DNA of 64,000 bases, taken from contig WFMF01000384.1 in the NCBI GenBank assembly GCA_011033025.1, positions 107,831 to 171,830 on the forward strand. Direction: 5' to 3'. A program made the position numbers and the translations under genes. Shown here piece by piece: positions 1 to 29,685 of this stretch. Numbering within the stretch: position 1 is the first letter of the stretch; each line of letters opens with the position of its first letter. Under the pieces are notes generated by a model, which was not told the DNA's origin, did not search any database, and worked only from the letters and a program-made list of their open reading frames with translations. Source of the DNA: Beroe forskalii. Taxonomy: Eukaryota; Ctenophora; Nuda; Beroida; Beroidae.

Positions 1-113
1 GTACATTGTACATTACGCCTTCATATGCATTATGCATGTACACAATTATGCCCGAGTGCTATGAATATATTACTCTACCAGAGGTATACTGAGGTCTTGA
101 CGCTCTGCCCTAG

Positions 114-3100
114 GTGTACTGGGAGTTCCGTAAAGTGATAACGAGCAACGCAGTGACGAAGCTGTGCAGCGCACAGAGCACCACAGAGGGGCTCTGCGCG
201 GACGGGAAAATCATCAGTCGTAATAGGGACTCTGATGCCACGTTAGTGATGGAAAAACAAGTGCAAATAGATACATTTGAAATTGAAGGAACCTTGGGGC
301 AGAATATAACAGTACTTGGGACAGGAACATAATTCAACCAAGGAAATACAAATTAAATTTTTGAAGAGTGATAAAGGGTGACTGCAAAACTATGTGAATA
401 TCACCCTATATAGCAAGTATCCAACCTGTTTTCAGTTACAATGTGGACAGAGAAGGAGACGGCTCTTCCGCCTACATAGCGAGTGATAGGTCCCTTGTCA
501 CAACTCTCTTCATACGAGGTACTTAATAGCAGAATAACAATAGCAGTCTTTGAAGTGCGATTGCATGATGAGTTATTTTATCAAGACATTTAAAAATATT
601 TAGTATCGGTGCCTCTTTGGTGACTTATAAGAGTATACGATTTCATTTCTTTAAATGCAGTATCAATCGACGGTTGATAATCTTACCCGTCGTTTCAGCG
701 AAGGGTACGCTTGAAGACAGACTGTACACGTGTGGTGTGAAACTTCCCGAACTGGATCCTTGGACACTACAACTTACCGTCGATACTTTCACGTTGAGTC
801 GCTTTATTTTATGCTCATTTTGGGCAGTTTGACATATTCAGCAATGGCCCGCTTTCAAATTAAAAGCAAAATATTCAAATTTGCCTTTTCTCTTGAGTAT
901 AAATATGAGACATATTTCGTAATGAGAGCACCCAGGGTATCTACGACGTACAAGGAAGTCAAGTCGGCCACTGAGGTACAGCTAACTTGCACCTTCGAGG
1001 GGATGCTCTCAGAGCTTGACGTTTACTGGAGCCAAGGTTAACATTGTCCTGATCTGTATCATGATCCACGTTGTGTAGTCAGTCTAAATCCATGAAAAGG
1101 CACACCGTATAATAAGCATTGCAATGTGATTTGTCGTGTGAAATCTTTAACTGACAGACCGCATGAACGTGCACATGTTCATTCTAACCGACTGTATTCC
1201 GCTCAAGGTCGAGGAGGGAAAAAGATGTCTCAGAGTGACTGCGGGGAGTTCACATTTGCCATGACATACGACGGACACGGACATCGTCAGGTATTACTTG
1301 GTATTATCAGTATTAGAGGCAGCATGTTAGAGGCTTATTGATACTTTGTTCAAATTGGTTTTTATCAAATTGTACCGTGTCACTGGACATTAATTCGGAT
1401 AGATTTGTAAACAAAGTACAAGTTATGAACTGTCCTGACCTCCTTACCCTGCAGCATACCACACTCACCGTACCTCCGGACCTGAACAACTTCAGCACCG
1501 ACTACTTCTGCAGTGTCTTCGATCATGATATTTACAGGTTAGATTTGTAGACTTGGTTAGAATTTCATGCTTATTTCGATTCAGGGAGCTGGCAACCGCA
1601 TTCCAACGTTTTTTTTTGCTAGAATTATTGATCAGAAAGAATTGACTGAAATGACCATAATATAATAGTAGTAGAGATGGTCTGCTTTGGATCGGTTTCA
1701 TGGATTCCAAAATTCACCGTCCAACCCCCTTCAGAGACACCACGGTTTTCCTGGGAGTGTTCCACATGGATCCCGAGTCCCGGGTGATCCAGGCAGGGGT
1801 GGAAGTCACTCTGGGAGTACAGGTTTCATCCCTGAGGTACCCTGTGGCTGTAGTCTGGAAGAATAACGAGGGATTCCCCTTCACTTCCCAAAATCCAGGA
1901 CCCTACATAGTATGTATACAGAGCATGATATCATAAAGTGTATAGTATGTATAAAGTGTATAATGTTCATTGCATGTATATTCTACAGGTCATTCTATGT
2001 ACAATGTACATTTATCATCTAGTAATCTTTAGCAAAATACAATTCATTATTTCATCACTAAAGCCTCGCGTTGATCTGACAATGCGATTTAAATGACCAT
2101 TGCTTGACATTTCCTGGATAACATCACGGAATAAGACTCTTCTCCTAGATTAAGGACGACACCTGGGACGAATCTTCGAACACGCAGAGCCCCACCCTCA
2201 CCATCCCAGCGTCCCTGAACACGGGATCCCGGGACTTCACCTGCGAGGTGACGCCCCGGCCCTGCATCGCCACTTCCTACGCGGGCTGCACGGACGACGT
2301 GGCCAACTCGGCGGGCACTCCACGGGAAAACGTGGCGGGAAAGGTGGCGGTGAAGCTGGTGGAGCTGCGCAACTCAGGGAGCCAGTGCAGCATCGACATG
2401 TTCAAGTCCCTTCGAGCAGAGGTGATTAACTTACTGACACGTAGTGATAAAGTAATGGCACTTTACGTTTACTTGTAGTTTCTTATATCATATCTTTCTG
2501 GATCTTATTGCTCTGCTGTGTTAGTGGGTTACTCCATGAAATACATAGACACGCGCCTATCGGGTCCATTTTGGGATACTGCCCGAGGGCGTAAGCCCGA
2601 GGGATGCATCCGGTTTTGGCCCGAGCCCGTAGGGCGAGGGTCTAAACCAATATGGAACCGATCAGGCAAGTGTCTATATATTATAGACCCGCATGAAAAC
2701 GTCAGAGGGTTCTATAGAGTAATGGCACTTTACGTTTACTTGTAGTTTCCTAATATCATATCTTTTTTGATCTTATTGCTCTGCTGTTTTACTCTATTAT
2801 AATACCCAACTCTTTCTCCGCAGGTCCCCCTGGCTACGGCTGCTACTGCCATACAGAAACCTTGTTTCGATATAATGGTGGTGGAGCCCAATGTGACGCT
2901 GCGGTACCCCATCTTCAAGTCTCAGTCCTACGTGGCTCCTGGTAACAACTTGGAGGTGAAGCCTCTGGCGATCTACGAGGCTGCCTTCGCCAGCAACACC
3001 GTCTATAGGTATGTCAAATGTGGTAATGTTAAGTATGTGGTAATTTATAGTATGTGGTAATGTGGTATTGGTATGTTTATATGAACATAGGGTAATACGA

Positions 3101-3795
3101 AATTTAAAGGAGGACCTTAAACTGCAGTTTGGGCCGTTTTAAGGAGCACATAAGGCTAAAGGTCGACCATAAACGGTTATGCAATCCGGCCCTTAACCTC
3201 ATTTTTATACAGTCTATGTCGGTTCCACGCTGTACCCTCTGAAATTCCTACCCTGCTACATGTTGAACACCACGCAGGTGTACAGCTAACGGGTGGGACC
3301 GGAACCCCCCTGGCTGTGGCTCGGACGCCCTGGAGTCCAGTATTCCTCCTGGAGCCTGCTCCACCCGGAACCAGTTCGACCCGGTCAAGTACGAGGTGAG
3401 GAGATCATATTAAAGTTTATATGGGAACAGTACGTTACCCGTTCTTATCGCACGAGGAGTAGGCAGTAGTCGAGTGTCATAAGTTCCTTATACCACGAGG
3501 AGAAGTTATCGCACTGTATAGCTTACGAAAAGTGGTGTAATGTTATAAACAAGCCCTGCTCAACATCTCAACGTGTCCTCGACCCATGTTATTCCGAATT
3601 CGATCAAATAGTAATGGGCTCTAATGGTGATCAAACATCATGTCTTCACTACTTTCAAACTGTCAGCGCAATAATAACGCGCCAATGCGGTATCTCCTTC
3701 GTAGGTTTTGGAAGGATTTGAGGTTCCTGATCCTGACTTTTCCACATCGAAGAAACCCAAGCCGTATTACACACACATTGCAGATGGTACAGTTG
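114..3795 (+). pseudogene. Ig-type receptor ectodomain cassette, truncated paralogue (unit 1)
   Basis: I see a chain of exons with compatible phases: 114-241, 436-518, 699-792, 927-1036, 1208-1290, 1455-1537, 1735-1909, 2149-2421, 2824-3008, 3213-about 3276 and 3705-3795. The translation has Ig hallmarks split over exon pairs: VYWEF (strand C Trp), LYTCGV, LTCTF, VYWSQ and DYFCSV (Tyr-x-Cys of strand F). From 436 on the exons match those at 9127-13963 almost base for base. Two lesions mark this copy as broken. An extra T near 3223, absent from the paralogue, shifts the frame of the exon starting at 3213. The exon starting at 3705 loses homology at 3795, just before a foldback element, and reads into a stop. 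The first half of the first Ig domain must lie upstream of the window. It could still supply 5' exons to gene A, because exon 114-241 has no counterpart in unit 2. Confidence 0.75.
2452..2805. mobile_element. Small MITE-like insertion with duplicated flank
   Basis: In the intron between exons 2149-2421 and 2824-3008, unit 1 carries about 260 bp that unit 2 lacks at the matching place (11600-11670). The flank containing AATGGCACTTTACGTTTAC is present on both sides (about 2455 and 2722). The inserted core (about 2535-2720) has an imperfect inverted repeat: TAGACACGCGCCTATCGG near 2548 against CCGATCAGGCAAGTGTCTA near 2657. Between them are short GC-rich palindromes of the GCCCGAGGGC type. No ORF is visible in it. 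It is either a non-autonomous DNA element or a duplication-linked insertion. Confidence 0.6.
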
Positions 3796-4012
3796 GGGTC
3801 GTATATGCCCTGATCGGTAACACAGTGTGAAGTAAATAGTACACTAGGTCTGAGAACGTTTTTTAGTAGTTCATAGGTCAGAGATGCACCGAAAAAAAAC
3901 TTTCCAAAATCGGAGTTGGGGAACCCCCATTTTTGAACCCCTTTTTCTCCGTAAAGGGGCATGAACTTCGAGCGACTATATCTCGGCTTCTAATTGAGAT
4001 ACAGAACTCAAC

Positions 4013-4600
4013 AAATGCATTTAACTATGCAAAATGAGCACATTATAGGGGGTAGAACGTGGTTTTGAGGTCGTACCTCTTTCCGTTCTCGAGTTATCGC
4101 CAAAAAACCCCTTTTTAGCCCTGTTTGAGCGTATGGCCAAAATTGCCCTTTTTTCATAAAAAGAACTGAAGGTCTTACAGAACTAAACAAATACACTAGG
4201 CTATGCAGAATGGGGGTAGTGGTTTTGAGGTCATTTCTGGGGGTAAAACCCCTTTTTTAGCCTTACGCGTTTTTTGTCATAAAAAAGAACTGAAGGTCTT
4301 ACAGAACTAAACAAATCTTTCCGTTCTTATGGGGGTAGAACGTTTTGATCGCCTTTCCGTTCTTGATTAAAAAAAACCTTTTAGCCCTACACGAATGGTC
4401 GAAATTGCCCCTTTGTCATAAAAAAAGAACTGAAGGTCTTACAGAACCTTACAAGTGCACCAGGCTGTGCAGAGTGAGCACATTGTGGGAGGTGGAGCCT
4501 GGTTTTGGGGTCGGGCCTCTTTGTGTTCTCGAGTTATATCATCGAAAAAAACCCTTTTACCCCAAGCATATGGTTGAAATTACCCTTCTCAGGTAACGTG
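4013..4600 (-). repeat. Tandem array of about 180-bp monomers, inverted arm
   Basis: Three to four diverged and partly deleted monomers contain the reverse complements of CCTTCAGTTCTT and CGAGAACGGAAAGAGG. They are the same monomer that stands in the opposite direction at 5775-6690. The short ORFs here are products of the repeat. Confidence 0.7.
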
Positions 4601-5269
4601 TTTCATTGAATCATTTCGTTCAAAACCCACGGTGGGGTACCCCTAAGGGCTATGAAATAAATATACTTATTAATGATGACAATAAAACTGAATAAAGCAA
4701 CCACATGATTCCTCGAAGGATTGGAATCAGTACTTTTTCGCCAGATTATTCCGTAATTCCTTGTAAAGTTGTAAGTTTACCTAGATATTACACACGATTT
4801 TAATACTAAATGATCTTTTACCTCTACTGAACTCTTTCTTTTTCCTCCCCCTTCCCTCTAAACTGTGTTGCTCAGAAATCCAGAGTTCTGGGTGGCCCAA
4901 CCTTGCAGTAATAACTTAGTAAGCTGTGAGGGGTACGAAGGCCGAAACCCCTCCGTTTCCCTGCCACCTGCTGATGATATACCTACATTGCACTATTGCA
5001 GTATTTCCGTTATGATTGTAGTATACCCGTACACCTCTATTGATAAGACCTTGGACTAGGTTATTTTAATGATTACATGATATCATGATTTGTTAAATGA
5101 AAATACAGTTAATCTTAATTTTTCAATGTTCAGGTACTGAAATTTATTATCATAATATAAGTATTACATCATTATGATGTCCGTGACAAAATTGTTTCCT
5201 TCATCTCTTTTTTTATTTTGAATATTTCACTTCTATTCCAAGTTCCAACAGCCACACGGCCAATGACAT

Positions 5270-5533
5270 GAATCGAAGGATTCAAGTATAATCAAGCCAG
5301 TGACGGTTATTAAGGAAGTATAATCCATACTTTCTTCGCCCGAGACTTCGCTGCAATGGGCAGCTCCTCATTTAACGCTCCCGTACAGTTTCCTGTATGC
5401 TCGGCTAAGTGAACCGTCGGGTTGCATAGGCTCAAGACGAATTTTTCACCCTTAGCTCAGTGGCGCTGGACCAGAATCGAACCCCGGACCTTTCGATCTT
5501 GTGCTCAACTTGATACCACTACACCACTGGCCA
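5270..5533 (-). mobile_element. tRNA-derived SINE (tRNA head 5461-5533)
   Basis: On the minus strand, 5533-5461 forms a 73-nt tRNA-like head. It has an A-box-like TGGTGTAGTGGT and a B box GGTTCGATTCT, and its outer ends TGGC and GCCA can pair. The anticodon stem pairs poorly, so I do not call a functional tRNA. The body continues towards 5270 with sequence that is neither tRNA nor the surrounding repeat. RNA polymerase III promoter boxes of this kind drive SINE transcription. The copy sits between the two tandem arms of foldback 1. The body end at about 5270 is approximate. Confidence 0.6.
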
Positions 5534-5774
5534 ATAGAATCATAGAGTAAAGAGACTGGTGTGATTCAAAATTGCAGCACGGGTGGAGCATATTTTTTAG
5601 AGATAAGAAGATTGAAGATTAATTAAAGCAGTTTTCAACCAATTTCTTACTTCTGGTAAGCCATCTATCCAATAATATGATTGTTTCGAAATGCAATAAT
5701 AGGCATTATCGACCAATCACCAATTACTGACTCGAAGTTTGTCGTTATACTTTAGGCTGATCAAAAATTTATAA

Positions 5775-6690
5775 TGTACTCATTCTGCATAGCCTGGCCT
5801 AGTGTATTTGTATAGTTCTGTAAGACCTTCAGTTCTCATTTACAGCAAAGGAGCAATTTTGGCCATTTGCAAGGGGCTAATTTAAAGGATTTATTTGGCG
5901 ATAACTCGAGAAGGGAAAGAGGTACGACCTCAAGACCATGTTCTACCCCCACAATGTGCTCATTCTCCATAGCTTAGTGTATTTTCATAGTTCTGTAAGA
6001 CCTTCAGTTCTTATTATTTATGACAAAGGGGCAATTTTGGACATTTGCGTAGGGCTAAAAAGGGTTTTATGGCAATAACTCGAGAAGTGGAAGAGGCACA
6101 ACCTCAAAACCACGTTCTACCCCCATAATGTGCTTATTCTGCATAGCCTAGTGTATTTGTTTAGTTCTGTAAGACCTTCAGTTCTTTTTTATGACAAAGG
6201 GGCAATTTTGGCCATACCCGTAGGGCTAAAAAGGGTTTTTTGGTCGCGGAAAGAGGTACGACCTCAAAACCACGTTCTACCCCCATAATGTGCTCATTCT
6301 ACATAGCCTAGTGTATTTGTTTAGTTCTGTAAGACCTTCAGTTCTTTTTTATGAAAAAGGGGCAATTTTGGCCATATATGTGTAGGGCTAAAAAGGGTTT
6401 TTTTGGCGATAACTCAAGAACGGAAAGAGGTACGACCTCAAAACCACGTTCTACCCCCCATAATGTGCTCATTCTGCATAGCCTAGTGTATTTGTTTAGT
6501 TCTGTAAGACCTTCAGTTCTTTTTTATGAAAAAGGGGCAATTTTGGCCATATGCGTAGGGCTAAAAAGGGGTTTTTTGGCGATAACTCGAGAACGGAAAG
6601 AGGTAAGACCTCAAAACCACGTTCTACCCCCTATAATGTGCTCATTGTGCATAGTTTAATGCATTTGTTGAGTTCTGTATACATATGAGA
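5775..6690 (+). repeat. Tandem array of about 180-bp monomers, direct arm
   Basis: Five to six monomers each contain GTGCTCATTCTGCATAGCCT, AGTTCTGTAAGACCTTCAG and CCTCAAAACCACGTTCTAC in that order. Individual copies carry small deletions. The array is the reverse-oriented partner of 4013-4600 and belongs to foldback 1. Confidence 0.8.
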
Positions 6691-6959
6691 CGTTATAAAT
6701 TCCGGATCCATGTATAGTCTTATTTGTCAACTGTCAAGTATCTAGAATAGCATTCGTCAGAAATCGATGGCCTTCCATTCAGTGTGGGCCTGAAGGATGC
6801 TTCAATGATGGATACCACTGAGAAAATCAGATGCTGCAGTAATTGTCTCCACGGACAAGCTTTATATGATCTGAATTATTGGTTTGGAGACATAAAAGTA
6901 TCAATTGAATGGGAATACGCTATTGAGGTCACTTCTTCACTTGTTTCTTCCAAAACTGT

Positions 6960-7830
6960 TTCTTCCCAAACTCTGGCTTTCTGGGGCTGCCGCCCTCAGA
7001 GTCTGAGGGCTCAGACCCCTGCTGTTCATTTGTTTTACAATATTAAATTTATTGAAATTGAGTGCGACATTATCGATCGTGCTGTTGAAAACATTGCAAA
7101 ACCCTATTGAGCTATTGAGGTGACAACAGACATGTCTCTTTTCCAGACATATGGCTTCTGGAGGCTGCCACCCCAGACCCCTGCTGTTCTTTATTCCTGG
7201 TGATTGGTAATATATTTAGTGAAATAATGTACGACAAAATCGACGGAGCTGTTGAAAATTGACATGAAAACAATGCAAAAAACTCTATTGAGGTGACATT
7301 TCTTTAAATTCAAGACCTCTGGCTTCTGGGGCCGCCGCCCCAGACCCCCGCTGTTTTTTCTTTCTTTTGATTGTGAAAATTTAGCGAAATTGAGTACGAC
7401 TACAACGATGAAGCTGTTGAGATGAAAACAATGCAAAAACTTTATTGATTTGACATTTCTTTCAATTCCAGACCTCTAGCTATGAGGCTGCCGCCCCCAG
7501 ACCCTGCTGTTCTTTCTTTCTTTTGATTGTGAATATAATAAGTGAAATTGAGTTCGACTACAACGATGAAGCTGTTGAGATGAAAACAATGCAAAAACCC
7601 TATTGAGATGACATTTCTTTACATTCCAGACCTCTGAGCTTCTATGGGGGCTGCCGCCCCCAGGCCCCTGCTGTTCTTTCTTTCTTTTGATTGTGAATAT
7701 AATAAGTGAAATTGAGTTCGACTACAACGATGATGCTGTTGAGATGAAACAATGCAAAACCCTATTGAGATGACATTTCTTTACATTCCAGACCTCTGGC
7801 TTCTGGGGCTGCCGCCCCAGGCCTCTGCTA
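6960..7830 (+). repeat. Tandem array, period about 160 bp, with GGGGCTGCCGCCCC hairpin
   Basis: About six copies of a block contain CTCTGGCTTCTGGGG, a short GC palindrome (CTGCCGCC), CAGACCCCTGCTGTTC, then an AT-rich part with GAGTTCGACTACAACGATGA. Isolated copies of the hairpin part recur near 28850-28890 and 29625-29650, so the unit is dispersed. The moderate ORFs across it (e.g. 6784-7110) are repeat read-through rather than genes. Confidence 0.7.
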
Positions 7831-8149
7831 GTGCTAATACAAACTTGAATTATCTTTATTTTCGAAAAACGCACTTACTGCGAATGAGGCGCCGCGAAGC
7901 GGCGCCGAATGAGCTCAAATTTGCACGCCCCCAAAAATTCTGGGCTGGATCCATGCCTGTCTCAATTAGAAGCCGAGATATAGTCGCTCGAAGTTCATGC
8001 CCCTTTACGGAGAAAAAGGGGTTCAAAAATGGGGGTTCCCCAACTCCGATTTTGGAAAGTTTTTTTTCGGTGCATCTCGGACCTATGAACTACCAAAAAA
8101 CGTTCTCAGACCTAGTGTACTATTTACTTCACACTGTGTTACTGTCCTA

Positions 8150-8265
8150 CCCTTATTAGTTAATAAGGGTGATGGTTTTGGTTCCACAACCATAACCATC
8201 ACCCTTAACCTAACTATTAATGGCTAGGATAAAGTTTAGCCGTGGTAGGGTTATTATGGTTGGGA
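8150..8265. repeat. Palindromic repeat duplicated at 14090-14205
   Basis: The block AAGGGTGATGGTTTTGGTTC, followed by its near inverse AACCATAACCATCACCCTT, is repeated almost exactly at 14096-14205. There it stands in the intron after exon 13838-13963. It therefore marks the continuation of the unit 1/unit 2 homology on the far side of foldback 1. In unit 1, about 170 bp between exon and repeat have been replaced by the foldback. Confidence 0.7.
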
Positions 8266-8654
8266 TTTTATTTTAATGCTGACAAACATAGCAATATGAC
8301 TCACTTCTTCAATTGTGGTTTTATATCCCATATTTGTCAATGCAACTATATCACACTGTGTCATATTGTGTACTATAAAGAGTATTGTTATAGGGATATC
8401 CACCAGGCAGGTGGAAATGTTGAATGACTCATTATTCCACCCAAACATTTAAGCTTCAATTATAAATAATACATCAGAGCATTGTCAAAGCTGAACAACA
8501 CCACCAGAAATACAATCATTCATTATCAAATTTGAGAATATCAAGTACTAAGCCACATCTGATCACATGCCAGGGATGAATTGCAGGAGTTAGTTGGAGG
8601 GTAAGGAAGGTGTTTGGTGAAGTGTTAGGTGATTGATGTAACACATCAGCTACA

Positions 8655-9083
8655 AAGATTTTCGCCCTCGGGCTCACAACTTCTACATAAGCCTTGCCAA
8701 CCCCTCCGATCTAATACTTACGAAACCTACTCGTGTTTGTATCGCATTTGTAGAAAAATTGTTAATGAAAGAAAAACTTCAATATTATTGTTGCAAACCT
8801 TCCTGAGTGTTCAAATCTCCGAGGATTTACTTGAACTTTCAAATTTTTTCATCTTAGATATGCCAATCTCCCAAAAAGCTCACGCGAGTGGATATATACC
8901 ATATACTCCTCGCCTCATGGGCTGAATTTCGTATAGCACTCGGGCTCTTCGAGCCCTGCGTGCTATACGATATATATCCCACTCGGGCTAGCGCCCTCGA
9001 GGGATATATTTTCATATCGCACGCGCACGCGCGTGCGATATGAAATTCAGCCCTAGAGGCTGCGGGTATATGTATATATATCA
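8655..9083 (+). mobile_element. Right-end fragment of element X
   Basis: The sequence matches the right part of the copies at 41704-43360 and 46065-47690, including GGCTGAATTTCGTATAGCAC, a GC-rich hairpin and the palindrome built on CGCACGCGCACGCGCGTGCG. It abuts unit 2 at 9083, exactly where unit 1 has the flank of exon 114-241, so unit 2 has lost that exon. The matching left-end fragment lies at 63747-64000. Confidence 0.7.
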
Positions 9084-9126
9084 CCCTATGCTATATAAGT
9101 AGCAAGTATATCCAACCTGTTTTCAG

Positions 9127-12100
9127 TTACAATGTGGACAGAGAAGGAGACGGCTCTTCCGCTTACATAGCGAGTGATAGGTCCCTTGTCACAACTCTCT
9201 TCATACGAGGTACTTCATAGCAGACTAACAATAGCAGTCTTTGGAGTGCGACTATATTTTAGTACTAGCGTTTGCCCGCGAAGATTCGCGGAAACAATCA
9301 ACATGATACCTTTGGTTCATCTTGTATCCAGCAGCCTACAGCTACTTGCTTCATGTTACCTCATCTTGGAATTTGTTAAGTAATTGGATTACCATTACCG
9401 CTTACCGAGGATTACAGATATTCGCGGAAATGCACCGCACAACATACTTTGTAATTTGAGATCACCTATATAGTATTGCCTTTCCGTAGCATATATTAGC
9501 ATTAGTAAACGCATGATATTTATTATGCAAATAACTAATCAACGGATAGTCCAATTCAAATTTTCCTTAAATAATAATAATCCACTTAATTGGGAGAATA
9601 TTTTCCCGAAAAACCGATCAAAAATATCAAATGCACTTCTTAAATAGTCATTTTACACAGACAGACAGATGCACGAACACTCTGAAATTATTAATATAGA
9701 TTGGTGCGGCGAGATTCGAGAATAATGAGTTATTTCATCAAGACATCTGAAAATATTTAGTATCGGTGCCTCTTTGGTGACTTATAAGAGTAAACGATTT
9801 CATTTCTTAATATGCAGAATCGATCGACAGTTGATAATCTTACCCGTCGTTTCAGCGAAGGGTACGCTTGAAGACAGACTGTACACGTGTGGTGTGAAAC
9901 TTCCCGAACTTGATCCTTGGACACTAGAACTTACCGTCGATACTTTCACGTTGAGTCGCTTTATTTTATGATTCTTTTGGGCAGTTGACATATTCTGCAA
10001 TGGCCCGCTTTCAAATTAAAAGCAAAATGTTTGACACCAAATTAGCCTTTTCTCTTGAATATAAATCTTCGGTATAATATGAGACATATTTTGTAATGAG
10101 AGCACCCAGGGTATCGACGACGTACAAGGAAGTCAAGTCGGCCACTGAGGTGCAGCTAACTTGCACCTTCGAGGGGATGCTCTCAGAGCTTGACGTTTAC
10201 TGGAGCCAAGGTTAACACTGTCCTGATCTGTATCATGATCCACGTTGTGTAGTCAGTCTAAATCCATGAAAAGTCACACCGTATAATAAGCATTGCAATG
10301 TGATTTGTCGTGTGAAATCTTTAACTGACAGACCGCATGAACGTGCACATGTCCATTCTAACAGACTGTTTTCCGCTAAAGGTCGAGGTGGGAAAAAGAT
10401 GTCTCAGAGTGACTGCGGGGAGTTCACATTTGCCATGACATACGACGGACACGGACATCGTCAGGTATTATCAGAGGCACCATGTTAGAGGCTTATTCAT
10501 ACCTTGTGTAAATTGGTTTTGTCAAATTATACCGTGTCACTGGATTGATTTGTGAAACTAAGTACAAGTTATGAACGGTCCTGACCTTCTTACCCCGCAG
10601 CATACCACACTCACCGTACCTCCGGACCTGAACAACTTCAGCACCGACTACTTCTGCAGTGTCTTCGATCATGATATTTACAGGTTAGATTTGCAGATTT
10701 GGTTAGAATTTCATGCTTATTTCGATTCAGGGAGCTGGCAACCGCATTTTTTTTCTAAAAATTATGGATCAGAAAAAATTGACTGAAATAACCATAAAAT
10801 AATAGTTATAGTAGAGACGGTCTGCTTTGGATCGGTTTTTTGGATTCCAGAATTCACCGTGCAACCCCCTTCAGAGACACGACTGTGTTCCTGGGAGTGT
10901 TCCACATGGATCCCGAGTCCCGGGTGATCCAGGCAGGGGTGGAAGTCACTCTGGGAGTACAGGTGTCATCCCTGAGGTACCCTGTGGCTGTAGTCTGGAA
11001 GAATAACGAGGGATTTCCCTTCACTTCCCAGAATCCAGGACCCTACATAGTATGTATACAGAGCATAATATCATAAAGTGTGTATATGTATAAAGTGTAT
11101 AATGTGCATTCTACAGGCCATTCTATGTACCTACAATGTACATTTATCATCTAGTAATCTTTAGCAAAAATATAATTCATTATTTCATCACTAATGCCTC
11201 ACGTTGATCTGACAATGCAATTATGACCATTGCTTGACATTTCCTGGATAACATCACGGAATAAGACTCTTCTCCCAGATTAAGGACGACACCTGGGACG
11301 AGTCCTCGAACACGCAAAGCCCCACCCTCACCATCCCGGCGTCCCTGAACACGGGATCCCGGGACTTCACCTGTGAGGTGACGCCCCGGCCCTGCATCGC
11401 CACCTCCTACGCGGGCTGCACGGACGACGTGGCCAACTCGGCGGGCACTCCACGGGAAAACGTGGCGGGAAAGGTGGCGGTGAAGCTGGTGGAGCTGCGC
11501 AACTCAGGGAGCCAGTGCAGCATCGACATGTTCAAGTCCCTTCGAGCAGAGGTGATCAACTTACTGACACGTAGTAATGAAGTCATGGCACTTTACGTTT
11601 ACTTGTAGTTTCTTATATCATATCTTATTGCTCTGCTGTGTGAGTGTGTTACTCTATAATACCCAACTTTTCCCCCGCAGGTCCCCCTGGCTACGGCTGC
11701 TACTGCCATACAGAAACCTTGTTTCGATATCATGGTGGTGGAGCCCAATGTGACGCTGCGGTACCCAATCTTCAAGTCTCAGTCCTACGTGGCTCCTGGT
11801 AACAACCTGGAGGTGAAGCCTCTGGCGATCTACGAGGCTGCCTTCGCCAGCAACACCGTCTATAGGTATGTCAAATGCGAAATGTGGTAATGTTAAGTAT
11901 GTGGTAATTTATAGTATGTGGTAATGTGGTATTGGTATGTGTAGTATTTAGATTGTAGGTATGTGGTAATGTGGTATTGGTATACGTATTGCGTAGTATC
12001 TAGATTGTAGGTATGTGGTAATGTGGTATTGTGTAGTGTTACAGGAGCACATTGGGTAATACAAAATTCAAAGGAGGACCTTAAACTGCAGTTTGGGCCG

Positions 12101-13963
12101 TTTTAAGGAGCACATAAGGCTAAAGGTCGACCATAAACGGTTATGCAATCCGGCCCTTAACCTCATTTTTATATAGTCTATGTCGGTCCACGCTGTACCC
12201 TCTGAAGTTCCTACCCCTCTACATGTTGAACACCACGCAGGTGTACAGCTAACGGGTGGGACCGGAACCCCCCTGGCTGTGGCTCGGACGCCCTGGAGTC
12301 CAGTATTCCTCCTGGAGCCTGCTCCACCCGGAACCAGTTCGACCCGGTCAAGTACGAGGTGAGGAGATCATATTAAAGGTTATATGGGAACAGTACGTTG
12401 GGGGGGGGGGGGCCAACCCCCTCAATTTTGGTGGATATCAAAAAATCGCCAATAGGGGGTTTAATTTTGGGGGGTTTTGGGGGGTTTTAGGGGGCTTAAT
12501 TCTTAGTGAAAAAAGGGGAATTTTTTCTCAAATGGTACCATTTTTGTTCCTGATTTTTTGCACCATTTCAAAATGGTACCATTTTTGGTCGTGATTTTTG
12601 GCGATTTTTGGAAATGGTACCATTTTTGGTCGTGATTTTTTGCACCATTTCAAAATGGTACCATTTTTGGTCGTGATTTTTGGTGATTTTTAGAAATGGT
12701 ACCATTTTTGTTTCCAGTTTTTGGTACCATTTTTGTTTATAATTTTTGGAACTTTTATGAAATGGTACCATTTTTGTTTCTGATTTTCAGCATCTTTTTC
12801 AAATGGTACCATTTTGTTTCTGATTTTTGCACCCTTTCGAAATGGTACCATTTTTGTTCCTGATTTTTTGCACCATTTAGTTTCAAAATGGTACCATTTT
12901 TGGTCGTGATTTTTGGTGATTTTTAGAAATGGTACCATTTTTGTTTCCGGTTTTTGGTACCATTTTTGTTTATAATTTTTGGAACTTTTATGAAATGGTA
13001 CCATTTTTGTTTCTGATTTTCAGCATCTTTTTCAAATGGTACCATTTTGTTTCTGATTTTTTGCACCCTTTCGAAATGGTACCATTTTTGTTCCTGATTT
13101 TTTGCACCATTTAGTTTCAAAATGGTACCATTTTTGGTCGTGATTTTTGGCGATTTTTGGAAATGGTACCATTTTTGTTTCCAGTTTTTGGTACCATTTT
13201 TGTTTATAATTTTTGGAACTTTTATGAAATGGTACCATTTTTGTTTCTGATTTTCAGCATCTTTTTCAAATGGTACCAAATTTGTGTCCGATTTTTTGCG
13301 CCTTTTCGAAATGGTACCTTTTTTATTAGTGATTTTTGGCTACTTTTTCAAATGGTACCATTTTGTTTCTTCATTTTGTTTCTTCATTTTGTTTCTTCAT
13401 TTTGAATCATACTAGAATAATTTTTGCTGTCGATAGGGGGTTTAATTTTGGGGGGTTTAATTTTTGCTGTCGATAGGGGGTTTAATTTTGGGGGGTTAAA
13501 TTTAACCCCCTGGTGGATATAACAAATTTCCAATAGGGGGCTTAATTTTGGGGGGTTTTGGGGGGTTGCCCCCCCCCCTACGTTACCCGTTCTTATCGCA
13601 CGAGGAGTAGGTAGTAGCCGAGTGTCATAAGTTCCTTATACCACGAGGAGAAGTTATCGCACCGTAATAGCTTACGAAAAGTGGTGTAATGTTATATACA
13701 GGACCTGCTCAACATCAAAGTGTCCTCGACCCATGTTATTCCGAATTCGATCTCAAATGGGCTCTAATGGTGATCAAACATCATGACTTCACTACTTTCA
13801 AACTGTTAACGCAATAATAACGGTATCTCCTTCGCAGGTTTTGGAAGGATTTGAGGTTCCTGATCCTGACTTTTCCACATCGAAGAAACCCAAGCCGTAT
13901 TACACACACATTGCAGATGGTACAGTTGTCAGATACAGAATAAGAAACACGGACTGCTATGAG
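9127..13963 (+). CDS. Gene A block: Ig-like ectodomain exons (unit 2)
   Basis: Ten exons encode alternating halves of Ig-like folds. Key marks are RLYTCGV (9856-9949), VQLTCTF and DVYWSQ (10101-10210), DYFCSV (10601-10683), VAVVWKN (10875-11049) and DFTCEV (11279-11551). The pattern of Cys, then Trp, then Tyr-x-Cys is the Ig core. Each domain is cut near its middle by an intron, as in gene B. For the exon starting at 12177 I chose the donor after 12240 (CAG|GTGTAC), because it keeps phase 0 into 13838. A second donor after 12358 follows an open frame with Cys residues, but reaching it needs a frameshift shared with unit 1. The element at 12400-13578 sits in the next intron. Confidence 0.75.
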
Positions 13964-16900
13964 GTAAGCTATGGTAAAACGTATTATATTTGGGTCAAAC
14001 ATGGTAGGCAGAGGAAAAAATTAGGCAGACTGGAAGAACACCGATTTTCAAAAAGTGGAAACAATTTGAAGCATTATTCAGAAACAGGTAGGTTAATAAG
14101 GGTGATGGTTTTGGTTCCACAACCATAACCATCACCCTTAACCTAACTATTAATGGCTAGGATAAAGTTTGGCCGTGGTAGGGTTATTATGGTTGGGATA
14201 TTATAGACAGAAGTAGCACTTCCACTTCTGTTCCAACTTTTTGAAAATCGGTGTCCCTCCAGTCTGCCGAAAATTACGAGATTTTACACGGTGATGTTAC
14301 GGTATTGTTTTATTTAGCGCGTCCTACCAAGAGGGTATTTAGTTGAAGGTGGCCGAGGACCGTATGTCGATTACCAGTTCTTGATTTAGGACAAAACTTG
14401 CCATCGCATGAAGAAATATTTTCCTAACCCGGTGACTTTCTATAACCTTTCAATATCAGTCACAGGTGTTTAATGTTAATGTCAGGTCAGGGACCTTTTA
14501 CCGATGCAGTTTCTTGATGCTGTCATGTGTACCTAATCTACCGAACTCCAATATTCCGCATACATTAAATTATGTTTGGGTGATTCAAAATCAAATGACC
14601 ATAAAATTTCTGGGATTTTGATACTATAATCTCTTCCAGCCAGTTAACGACGTGGCTGATACAGAGTTCACTACGACTTGTTCTAGAGGGAGTTTTACAG
14701 AAGAAGCCATACCTGTCAAAAGAGGTTAGCAGAATACCTTACGTTATGTTTTTCTCGAAGCTATATTTCGTCAAAAGCCCGCGAAGTTCTATTTCCGAAG
14801 CTTTAATTCTTCTTTGGACTACTTAATATAGAAAAGTATGATATCCTGTTTCAGTGTGTTGTGACTACCCTGTTTTTGAGAGTGAGGATGGGTCCAATGC
14901 TGAGATCTGCATCAGAGCCTACGTGGAGAGCCCGGCGTCAGGTTCCCAGGGCAGTGACTCGCTCACTGGACAAATCTACCTCATGAAGAGTGAGTCAGCT
15001 GAAATCGATGCTTTGTAAATAATAATAAGATATTCGACGAGTCATACTTCATTCGTAAAATCATTCGTCACCAATATATTAATGATCATCATGAAAAGAT
15101 TTCATTCGTTAAATCGTTAAAAGATGATATTCTGTCATGCTTCAAACACTTTATATACCTATACTGCGTTTTATAAAAAGTACAAAGGTAAATTTGCCCA
15201 TAATTTCTGACTCGTTCAGATAAGAAAGTATTCTTTGACAAGAGATGTCCATGTTTCACGATACTCTGGAATGAGGCCCAATGCATCGAAGGGAAGCTCC
15301 TGTCTACCATGCCTCTGACTAATCTCCCTGACGAAGTAAGAATATTATGATTATGCCTTTTCTAGTGTACAGCACCCGGAATTTATCAAAAACTCCTTAT
15401 GGCAAGTGGCAAGATCGCTGCTAATAATATAAGTTTAAAAAGTATGTCAACTTTTGCATTTAAGTCTTAATAGATTATCTTCCACGGTTGCACCGTTAAA
15501 ACATACCCGTTGTGTTTCAGATCGTCGAGAATAAAGGGAACTACAAATGGGTTACTTATGATAACCATGAAAGGATGGAACTCGATCCAGTTTTTGTTGT
15601 TGAATCAAGTGAGATTTCACTAAACCAATGAAATGATTTCTTAGTAAATTGTAGGTTTTCTTGAAAATTCCTGACGTCAAATATTAATTGTATAATTACT
15701 GTTTGCCTCCCTCTAGTTCGTTGTTCTCTTCTGCAGTGTGTTGTGAGATCCCTCAGAATTTCCACGACACGGGTAATCCCGTGACAAGCATGGGGTCTGT
15801 CAGCTACATCTACCGAGGAAGGACCGTCACCTACTCCTGCCAGGGATACTGCTATAGGTCTCAGCTTAGTCTAATTATACTTCATTTTCATGCTCAAGTT
15901 TCAACTTGATGCTCAAGTTTCAACTTGATGCTCAACTTTTAACCTACTAGTACTAATCCAAAATCGTATTGTGTACAATATGATGACATGCAGATGAATT
16001 CCTCAATGGAACTGCCAACAGAAACTCTAGGTTGTTTATCAGTGAATTTAAACTCCCAGAATTAACACAGACATGACAGAAGCTACGTGTATGGCGGACA
16101 CACCCACCCTTGAGTCCCCCAAGTGTGAGCCAGAACCCTCCTGCTGTAAGACCTACAACGAAACTAACCCATTCATCACCAACATGGGGCAAATCGAGTG
16201 GAAAACAACTGAAAACGGTTGGAAACTTAACACAATCCAATGTATGCTCAGGCTAACTGTCTTAATTCTCTTGCACCAGTTTCCGAATTCTTATTCAAAG
16301 TGGTGCAGTGATGAAAATAATTTCAATGTTGAGACCGTTAATTTGATACACAAAAATTCGGTAAACCCCTTCTTCTTAGCTGGGGTAGGAGTTGAAGCCC
16401 AATGGATGAGTACATTAGTCCTGTTCACTCCTTACTTTCTTAAGGTATATATCACTCCACACATCCTCTCAGGAGACAAGACCACAGTGCCGCCAACTGC
16501 TGGTGTTGAAGACGTGTCAGCAACCAGGAGGTGCTACTTTTCTGAATGGGACTTGGTCCGGTACACCAACATTGCTCTCAACCGAGCTCTCATCGGATCT
16601 GCTCTAGCTGTACTTTTCTCTCCTTTAATCTTGTCTTAACTCTCTTCTGAATCTTTATGTATGAAATATGAAGAGTATCTGATAACTTCTGATGTGGTTT
16701 CAGGATGGACATTCATGATAAATTTCGTAACTTTGAAGTCAAATAGAATACAAATAATTCGTATTGACTGGCCATTTTCGTACGAGGTATCGATACCTCG
16801 TTGTACAAAAATGGCCAGTCAATACGAATTATTTGTATTCCCTAAGAAGTAGAAAAATAAGAAATTGAAGGATCCTTCAATTTCTTATTTTTCTACTTCT

Positions 16901-27950: not shown

Positions 27951-28943
27951 ATACCCAGACAATAGCGCTCAATTTTCGAGCAAGAATAAATCTGAATTTA
28001 ATGTGCAGCTCTTTTATTTAATGATTTGGTATTCTCTGCGAGTGTGCACCACGTGCATGACTATGAAAGCAAGATAAAATTTAGATTTTTTTTCTTATTA
28101 TTTTCTTATCTGCTTTGGGTGTATCTCAACACCCATATACCCATACAAGCCGCCCCTGCATTATTATGCAGTATGAACTCCTGTGATTTGGTCTGAGTGT
28201 CGACGGGCGATGTCCGTCCCTTTCTTCTGACTTGTTGTTGCGCAAAGTGACGTCCAAATGTGGAACGTTGCGCCGCGCGCGCGAGGGTAGGGTAACATCC
28301 TACGAGGCTGAGTGCCATTTTAAATTCAGCATAGTATACCTAATAAGCAGAGAATTAGCAAGCAGAGAACAAGATATATTCCTTTATAGATATCAAATAC
28401 CACTCATTTATTTCAAATACATAATACACACACACACAACATTAAAAGGGAGATGGATACATTGGAGTTGGGCACTTGGTGGGTTATGATTGGCAGGTGT
28501 TCCCAGGGCCATTGAGAGGGGTTCTTACAGCAACAACTGTTGCTGGCTCCAGCTTCCAAAATAATTGTTAAATTGCTAAATAATTGTTAAAATTTGATAT
28601 TGATCAAATGGGTATGAGATTAGAGATAGTTTAATACCATTATGCCAAAGTAGCAAAATATTTTTGACTATCATATTGGCTATTGTATTGATTATCGTAT
28701 TATTACAGCAATTATTGTATTGAGACAGCAATTTCATTTACTCAGAAAATCTGGCTCCTGGGGCTTTCTTAATATTGCTTCGACCTGAAATTTCAGATAT
28801 TGACAAAATAGCAGTAAATACCATTGAGGCAATTATTACATTCATTCAGAACTTCTGGCTTCTGGGGGCTGCTGCCCCCAGACCCCTGCTTATCAATACA
28901 TCATTGTTGTGGAATTGCTTTCTTGATCTTCCGTCAACATAAA

Positions 28944-29565
28944 GGGGGGGGGGTGTCACTGTCCCAATTGTCCCAAACTCAAGAAAAAGTGGATTGGGAC
29001 AGGGACAATTGGGACAAATGGGACTCAAAAATGTGAATTCGGACTGGGACAATTGGGACATTTGGGACAAATGGGACAATTGGGACAATTATGGGACAGA
29101 GAAAATGGAACAAATGGGACTCAAAAAAGTGAATACGGACTGGGACAAATGGGACATTTGGGACAAATGGGACATTTGGGACAAATGGGACATTTGGGAC
29201 AAATGGGACATTTGGGACAAATGGGACATTTGGGACAAATGGGACATTTGGGACAATTGGGACAAAAGGGACAGAGACAACTGGGGCTCAAATGATTGTG
29301 TTTTTGAATGGGAGTTTAGTGTTTTTGTCTTACAGCTTCTTACATAGCAGCACACAACCAAAACTTGTACTTATTAGCATAATAGTAGTATGATAGAAAA
29401 ACATTGGCCAATGTAAAAATGATAGATGACTGATTTGTCCAACTTTTTGTTTGTCCCAATTGTCCCAAATGTCCCAGTTGTCCCAAAAACCAGTCCCAAA
29501 CTCAAAAAAAAAGTAAATTGGGACAGGGAAAATTGGGACAATTGGGACAGTGAAACTCCCCCCCC
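28944..29565. mobile_element. G-tract-bounded element with GGGACA minisatellite core (copy 2)
   Basis: The element opens with 10 G and closes with 8 C, flanked by a 5-bp direct repeat ATAAA (28939-28943 and 29566-29570). The subterminal sequences are inverted copies (CACTGTCCCAATTGTCCC against GGGACAATTGGGACAGTG). The core is a run of GGGACAAATGGGACATTT units. It has the same architecture as 12400-13578 but an unrelated core. Open frames on both strands follow from the stop-free repeat. Confidence 0.8.
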
Positions 29566-29685
29566 ATAAAACATCAGATAGTTACAAAGATGCTCATGAG
29601 TGATCATTTCATTTACTCAGACATCTGGCTTCTAGAGGCTGCTGCCCCAGACCTTTGAAGCTTTGAAGCCTGCCCTAGGTGCAAA

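Follow-up and report, generated by a model that had tools for sequence, protein, structure and literature searches.

Tetris of Drosophila virilis is, in the available part of its description, a non-autonomous terminal-inverted-repeat (TIR) transposon of the MITE type with internal tandem repeats (PMC4079207). A target duplication of 6 bp is named for hAT6 in an excerpt of a second paper (PMC12730594), and the excerpted accounts of IS3EU/GingerRoot combine a 6-bp duplication with ends that read TA..TA or TG..CA (PMC10045372, PMC12730594). Dada, as excerpted, duplicates 6 bp (6-7 bp), has no terminal inverted repeats and targets multicopy small-RNA genes (PMC3706591), and the partial text on the IS256/MuDR group gives duplications of 4-10 bp (PMC10045372). 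Here, we compare with these systems an element of Beroe forskalii that is bounded by a G run and a C run.

A dispersed element in the second tandem unit

The window, i.e. the whole 64,000-bp stretch of DNA analysed, contains two tandem gene units (1-9100 and 9100-14000) about 9.15 kb apart, in which blocks are 91-98% identical. The extra 1,179 bp in unit 2, at 12400-13578, are one copy of a dispersed DNA element, named family A in the following. An earlier note on this DNA had described a clean insertion with a 6-bp target duplication at this place, and its coordinates are right (all features are given on the + strand). The element opens with a G13 run (12400-12412) and closes with a C10 run (13569-13578), as seen in the sequence and in the alignment with unit 1. 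TACGTT is present on both flanks, at 12394-12399 and 13579-13584, where comparison with other copies gives the same limits, and it occurs once, uninterrupted, in unit 1 (3431-3436). This empty site was located by BLAST and by alignment of the joined flanks. BLAST of unit 1 against unit 2 gave two pieces, 3050-3436 matching 12011-12399 and 3431-3795 matching 13579-13928, which overlap exactly by the 6-bp duplication. The joined flanks of unit 2, with one TACGTT kept, aligned to unit 1 with 703/750 identities and 21 gaps, none of which falls at the junction. The claim of a clean insertion thus agrees with the unit-1 alignment and with the duplications found in other copies.

The left subterminal region (12413-12528) starts with CCAACCCCC, continues with GGTGGATAT... 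from 12430 and also carries G6/T4 repeats. It is followed by a palindrome array (12530-13363) with 22 sites of AAATGGTACCATTT, mostly at a 41-bp pitch and with a higher-order repeat of about 234 bp. The right subterminal region (13418-13568) brings GGTGGATAT...CCAATAGGGGG a second time, from 13512 and oriented as at the left end, and GGGGTTG precedes the C run. Judged from putative splice sites, the copy is apparently intronic, 41 bp past a GTGAGG donor after 12358 and with the next exon from 13838. We also noticed that an approximately 80-bp dispersed repeat (3424-3505 and 13579-13653) starts almost exactly at the TACGTT target.

Dispersed copies, nested insertions and the palindrome array

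The genome searched comprises 216 Mb in 1,134 contigs. A first look gave 570 candidate left ends and 439 candidate right ends, of which 40 were scored per search. The terminal motif GGGGGGGGGGSCAACCCCC has 257 exact occurrences (136 + 121) and a 25-base left-end pattern without the G run has 146 (78 + 68), the reversed control being 0 in both cases. Against 20 loci (L009-L028), the left non-satellite end found best matches 91-100% identical, and the right end best matches of 86-99%, some of them partial and the shortest of 58 bp. Compared with other copies, the ends of the window copy reach 100% identity over 114 bp on the left and 99.3% over 151 bp on the right. The shared subterminal motif foreseen in the earlier note is indeed present, CAACCCCC being conserved across the family A copies.

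Target duplications were counted in the 24 distinct copies of loci L001-L053 that are readable at both ends by the end patterns; the rearranged L004/L011 cluster (three rows) and L003, which has a left end only, were left out, and the 24 are mostly best matches to the window copy and so a non-random sample. The direct repeat measures 6 bp in 13 copies, 5 bp in five, 7 bp in two, 8 bp in one and 4 bp in one. Copies without a duplication had been named beforehand as evidence against the insertion; 22 of the 24 carry a direct repeat of at least 4 bp, and in the other two the flanks agree at 5/6 bases (L019) or at 0 (L027). A repeat of at least 5 bp is found in 21 of the copies; when the flank partners were shuffled 2,000 times, the mean was 0.97 and the maximum 6. 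Furthermore, four of the six copies with a 4- or 5-bp repeat reach 6 bp (CTAAAA, CAATTA, CAATAC and CCTTAA) if a C of the run is assigned to the target. The end pattern missed a decayed copy at L043, outside the count, whose flanks TGCTTA and TACTTA agree at 5/6 bases.

The 24 copies are 736-3,000 bp long (median 1,098), with runs of G7-15 and C6-17 whose lengths are uncorrelated within copies (r = 0.08). A terminal hairpin, in which the G run would pair with the C run behind it, was considered and rejected: eight ends folded no better than their shuffles (z from -0.60 to 2.56). One family A copy (L003, G000:C303:936934) lies directly behind a coding stretch that resembles cytochrome P450 by eye.

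Nested inside two family A copies is a second kind of G-ended element, family C (GGGGGGGGATGAAGCCC...), whose 21-base end pattern has 29 exact ends genome-wide and none in the control. The length of these copies, 5.25 kb on contig C303 and 3.0 kb on contig C181, is due to the family C element inside. In both, family C duplicates known family A sequence, ATTTTT in the first and TTAATT in the second, and the uninterrupted targets are found in 41/45 and 19/45, respectively, of the partly overlapping loci L001-L045. In these nested cases, insertion with target duplication is directly visible. At about position 1655 of locus L051, a family C copy encloses one more G-run end (G13 TCCAGCGGCCAACGGCC); a similar end exists at C2:561550 (L086), with no other end found within 900 bp.

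The site AAATGGTACCATTT is a perfect 14-base palindrome. In the window array 17 of the 22 sites are exact, one has 1 mismatch, one has 2 and three have 3; the pitch is mostly 41 bp, sometimes 25, 39, 40 or 46, and the spacers differ between units. Over 26 loci, 570 AAATGGTACCATTT-like sites were counted, 331 of them exact, again with a modal pitch of 41. A sample of 4,436 pairs of 41-bp units was taken in which spacer identity is below 60% (mean 0.55); in these the palindrome retains an identity of 0.905, which is an upper estimate because sites were picked by resemblance (up to 4 mismatches). Genome-wide, exact AAATGGTACCATTT occurs 5,760 times, versus 4 for the mirrored sequence. Among the first 50 matches listed, all on contigs C1 and C2, four clusters at ends of family A account for 42, a further cluster of six (C1:1400495-1401156) has no family A end listed, and two are solitary.

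Possibly, the array is a series of binding sites of a protein that acts as a dimer, either the transposase or a host factor, with the palindromes kept while the spacers drift. The ctenophore chromatin-loop anchor motif is described, in the excerpt available, as GC-rich with two CpGs (PMC12221973), and AAATGGTACCATTT does not fit that description and was rejected as such an anchor. Family A is a natural case of a transposon that scatters a single palindromic site, in thousands of copies and at fixed pitch, and the array could be tested for protein binding.

Further G-run elements and the search for the moving enzyme

A second G/C-run element of the window, family B, lies at 28944-29564 (+) and has a core of TGGGACAAA-type minisatellite repeats unrelated to family A. 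When one C of the run is assigned to the target, the 6-bp direct repeat CATAAA stands on both flanks, at 28938-28943 and 29565-29570. Genome-wide, family B ends (six G plus 21 places) have 282 exact occurrences, with 0 in the control. Three further B loci were fetched. One, L080, is a copy with TTTATT on either side by eye; the other two, L081 and L082, have a common flank and represent one duplicated place, in which no right end was found within 800 bp. The end patterns of the two families give annotation the boundaries of some hundreds of insertions (146 exact A left ends and 282 B ends), the cores of which otherwise resemble plain minisatellites.

Two more elements, each seen in one copy, have G-run ends and long inverted repeats together with a TTAA duplication: family E (L077, 63-2625) and family F (L085, 25-810), the latter with an extra T at its left end. 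They are like family A in their G/C-run ends and differ from it in the TTAA duplication and in unrelated sequence; they may be kin to piggyBac or Kolobok. Terminal G runs are therefore common to elements of at least two duplication classes, and for this reason we do not regard them as diagnostic of one superfamily or system. At three other G-run places (L083, L084 and L086) no second end was seen within about 900 bp. Runs of at least 11 G plus the searched places number 5,160 in the 216 Mb, with many different sequences after the run. The reversed control, 5,209, offers no contrast because it picks up equivalent runs read from their opposite side. A number of this size probably exceeds what base composition would suggest. 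Homopolymer-G ends are hard to square with specific recognition of transposon ends; as a single genome has them on elements of two duplication classes, what terminal G runs do can be tested.

The autonomous relative foreseen in the earlier note was not found in the loci read. The long members of family A include no autonomous copy: those on C303 and C181 are the nested insertions, and an 8.2-kb span on contig C271 is bounded on one side by a complete 1.2-kb copy, which has a duplication of its own, and on the other by a separate end. No transposase was recognised by eye among the open reading frames of at least 130 aa in the loci, which resemble host genes, a gypsy-like element or simple repeats. 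Three right ends with no left end nearby (L030-L032) sit behind a palindrome array, where no gene was seen by eye, and the Pfam search with a 71-aa stretch close to the L042 end had no match above the cut-off. Of 23 loci with a hAT dimerisation domain, none was seen to be G-ended, their 5' ends possibly falling outside the loci.

Two side observations come from the loci fetched. Locus L079 (G000:C191:126000-130800) has a Mutator-like (MULE) open frame of 618 aa and lies in an FG-repeat gene that is nucleoporin-like by eye; its inverted ends are arrays of an approximately 16-bp CGAGGGTATTC repeat, and a candidate 9-bp duplication, TATTTTGAA, was identified by eye. The mitochondrial contig (L078) encodes a divergent COX1 whose frame is open with TGA as Trp; with AGR taken by us as Arg (NCBI code 4), Arg stands at several conserved-Arg places. 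Taken alone, this gene indicates a non-bilaterian animal, perhaps a ctenophore.

Origin of family A and comparison with known systems

Many dispersed copies of family A share the same inverted ends, the target duplication is of constant length (exactly 6 bp in 13/24 copies and at least 5 bp in 21/24) and the copies read are devoid of a transposase reading frame. These features point to a non-autonomous TIR DNA transposon whose transposase is encoded elsewhere, and we hold this assignment to be very probable. A DDD/E-type transposase from elsewhere would cut along the outer border of the G/C runs and join the element to the strands of a target opened with a 6-bp stagger, and repair of the gaps would then yield the duplication. 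The enzyme probably binds family-specific subterminal sequence, because the G run is also found on elements of another duplication class, and the runs may change length by slippage, since the two ends of one copy disagree in length.

The transposase might belong to a known 6-bp superfamily, most plausibly hAT6-like and less so IS3EU, the G runs having been gained in this lineage; we regard this as possible, though not as the likelier course. Both groups are published with 6-bp duplications, as far as the excerpts go (PMC12730594, PMC10045372), and the TTAA elements suggest that ends of more than one class may gain G runs in this genome. Against it, although 8 of the 23 hAT-domain loci hold a G or C run of at least 6, none was seen acting as an end: at L057/L058 two copies stay alike beyond the run, and the remaining loci were judged by position and by eye. 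The usual hAT end signature is absent from family A ends. IS3EU/GingerRoot ends, in the excerpted description, are TA..TA or TG..CA (PMC10045372), whereas those of family A are G..C.

With somewhat greater reserve, we consider an undescribed DNA-transposon superfamily that encodes its own transposase; it would be characterised by 6-bp duplications together with G-run/C-run ends and would comprise families A, B and C, which are unrelated inside. The TTAA elements would then have gained G-run ends convergently. This proposal is tentative. If it is true, homopolymer-G termini are favoured by some feature of the host, be it slippage during repair of transposon ends or a factor that binds G tracts, and family A has also spread its phased palindrome array, with the 5,760 exact sites, through the genome.

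It is unlikely that family A is moved by MULE transposases. MULE domains occur at 46 places, many with long open frames, the ends of the single locus read likewise consist of short tandem repeats, and the range of 4-10 bp in the IS256/MuDR group means that duplication length alone does not exclude a MULE. However, that locus, one of the 46 places, starts with CAGGTCTGAATACCC instead of a G run, and the candidate for a duplication there measures 9 bp by eye.

Loss of the element from unit 1 by precise excision, instead of its never having been there, has a very low probability in our estimate. Precise excision is known for some transposons, and the genome search with the unit-1 site found no third full paralogue: units 1 and 2 are the sole full relatives, and five further matches, 76-80% identical, are confined to query bases 124-205 and represent a short dispersed repeat. 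The polarity of the event therefore rests on the other copies and on the two nested cases, in which family C was seen to insert with duplication. The ends of the window copy are near-identical to those of other copies, while the flanks differ by about 6% from unit 1, and insertion consequently took place after the gene duplication. The word "proven", applied to the empty site in the earlier note, is slightly strong, given the small probability of a precise deletion in unit 1. An origin as a minisatellite arisen in place in unit 2, with the flanking 6-mer a matter of chance, is in keeping with the tandem array that forms the core of the window copy but is refuted by the same ends at more than 100 places, the copies read differing in their flanks and each having its own duplication.

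Our best reading remains that family A works like a cut-and-paste TIR element, its superfamily being left unnamed. The poly-G and poly-C ends had been noted as unlike any transposon class familiar to the author of the earlier note, and this held: we could not match the unusual homopolymer ends to a described family, the nearest candidates being compared by description and IS3EU/GingerRoot and Dada failing in their defining features. The literature matches listed, from openly licensed papers and in part from weak queries, likewise held no match for a G-run-ended or 6-bp element.

Family A is distinguished from piggyBac and Kolobok by duplications that vary in sequence and are mostly 6 bp long, instead of TTAA. 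Polintons are large elements with their own integrase and polymerase. In its 6-bp duplication family A resembles hAT6, as excerpted (PMC12730594), but no hAT gene could be linked to G-run ends among the 23 loci. With the partial description of IS3EU/GingerRoot it shares the 6-bp duplication and inverted ends and differs in its G-run..C-run termini, and so in the defining ends. With Dada, as partly described, it has the 6-bp duplication in common (PMC3706591), whereas its ends are inverted, its targets varied and its flanks different in the copies read. Like Tetris-type TIR/MITE elements, in the available part of their description, family A has inverted ends, is mobile and carries an internal tandem array; it differs from them in its G/C homopolymer ends, its 6-bp duplication and its phased array of a 14-bp palindrome.
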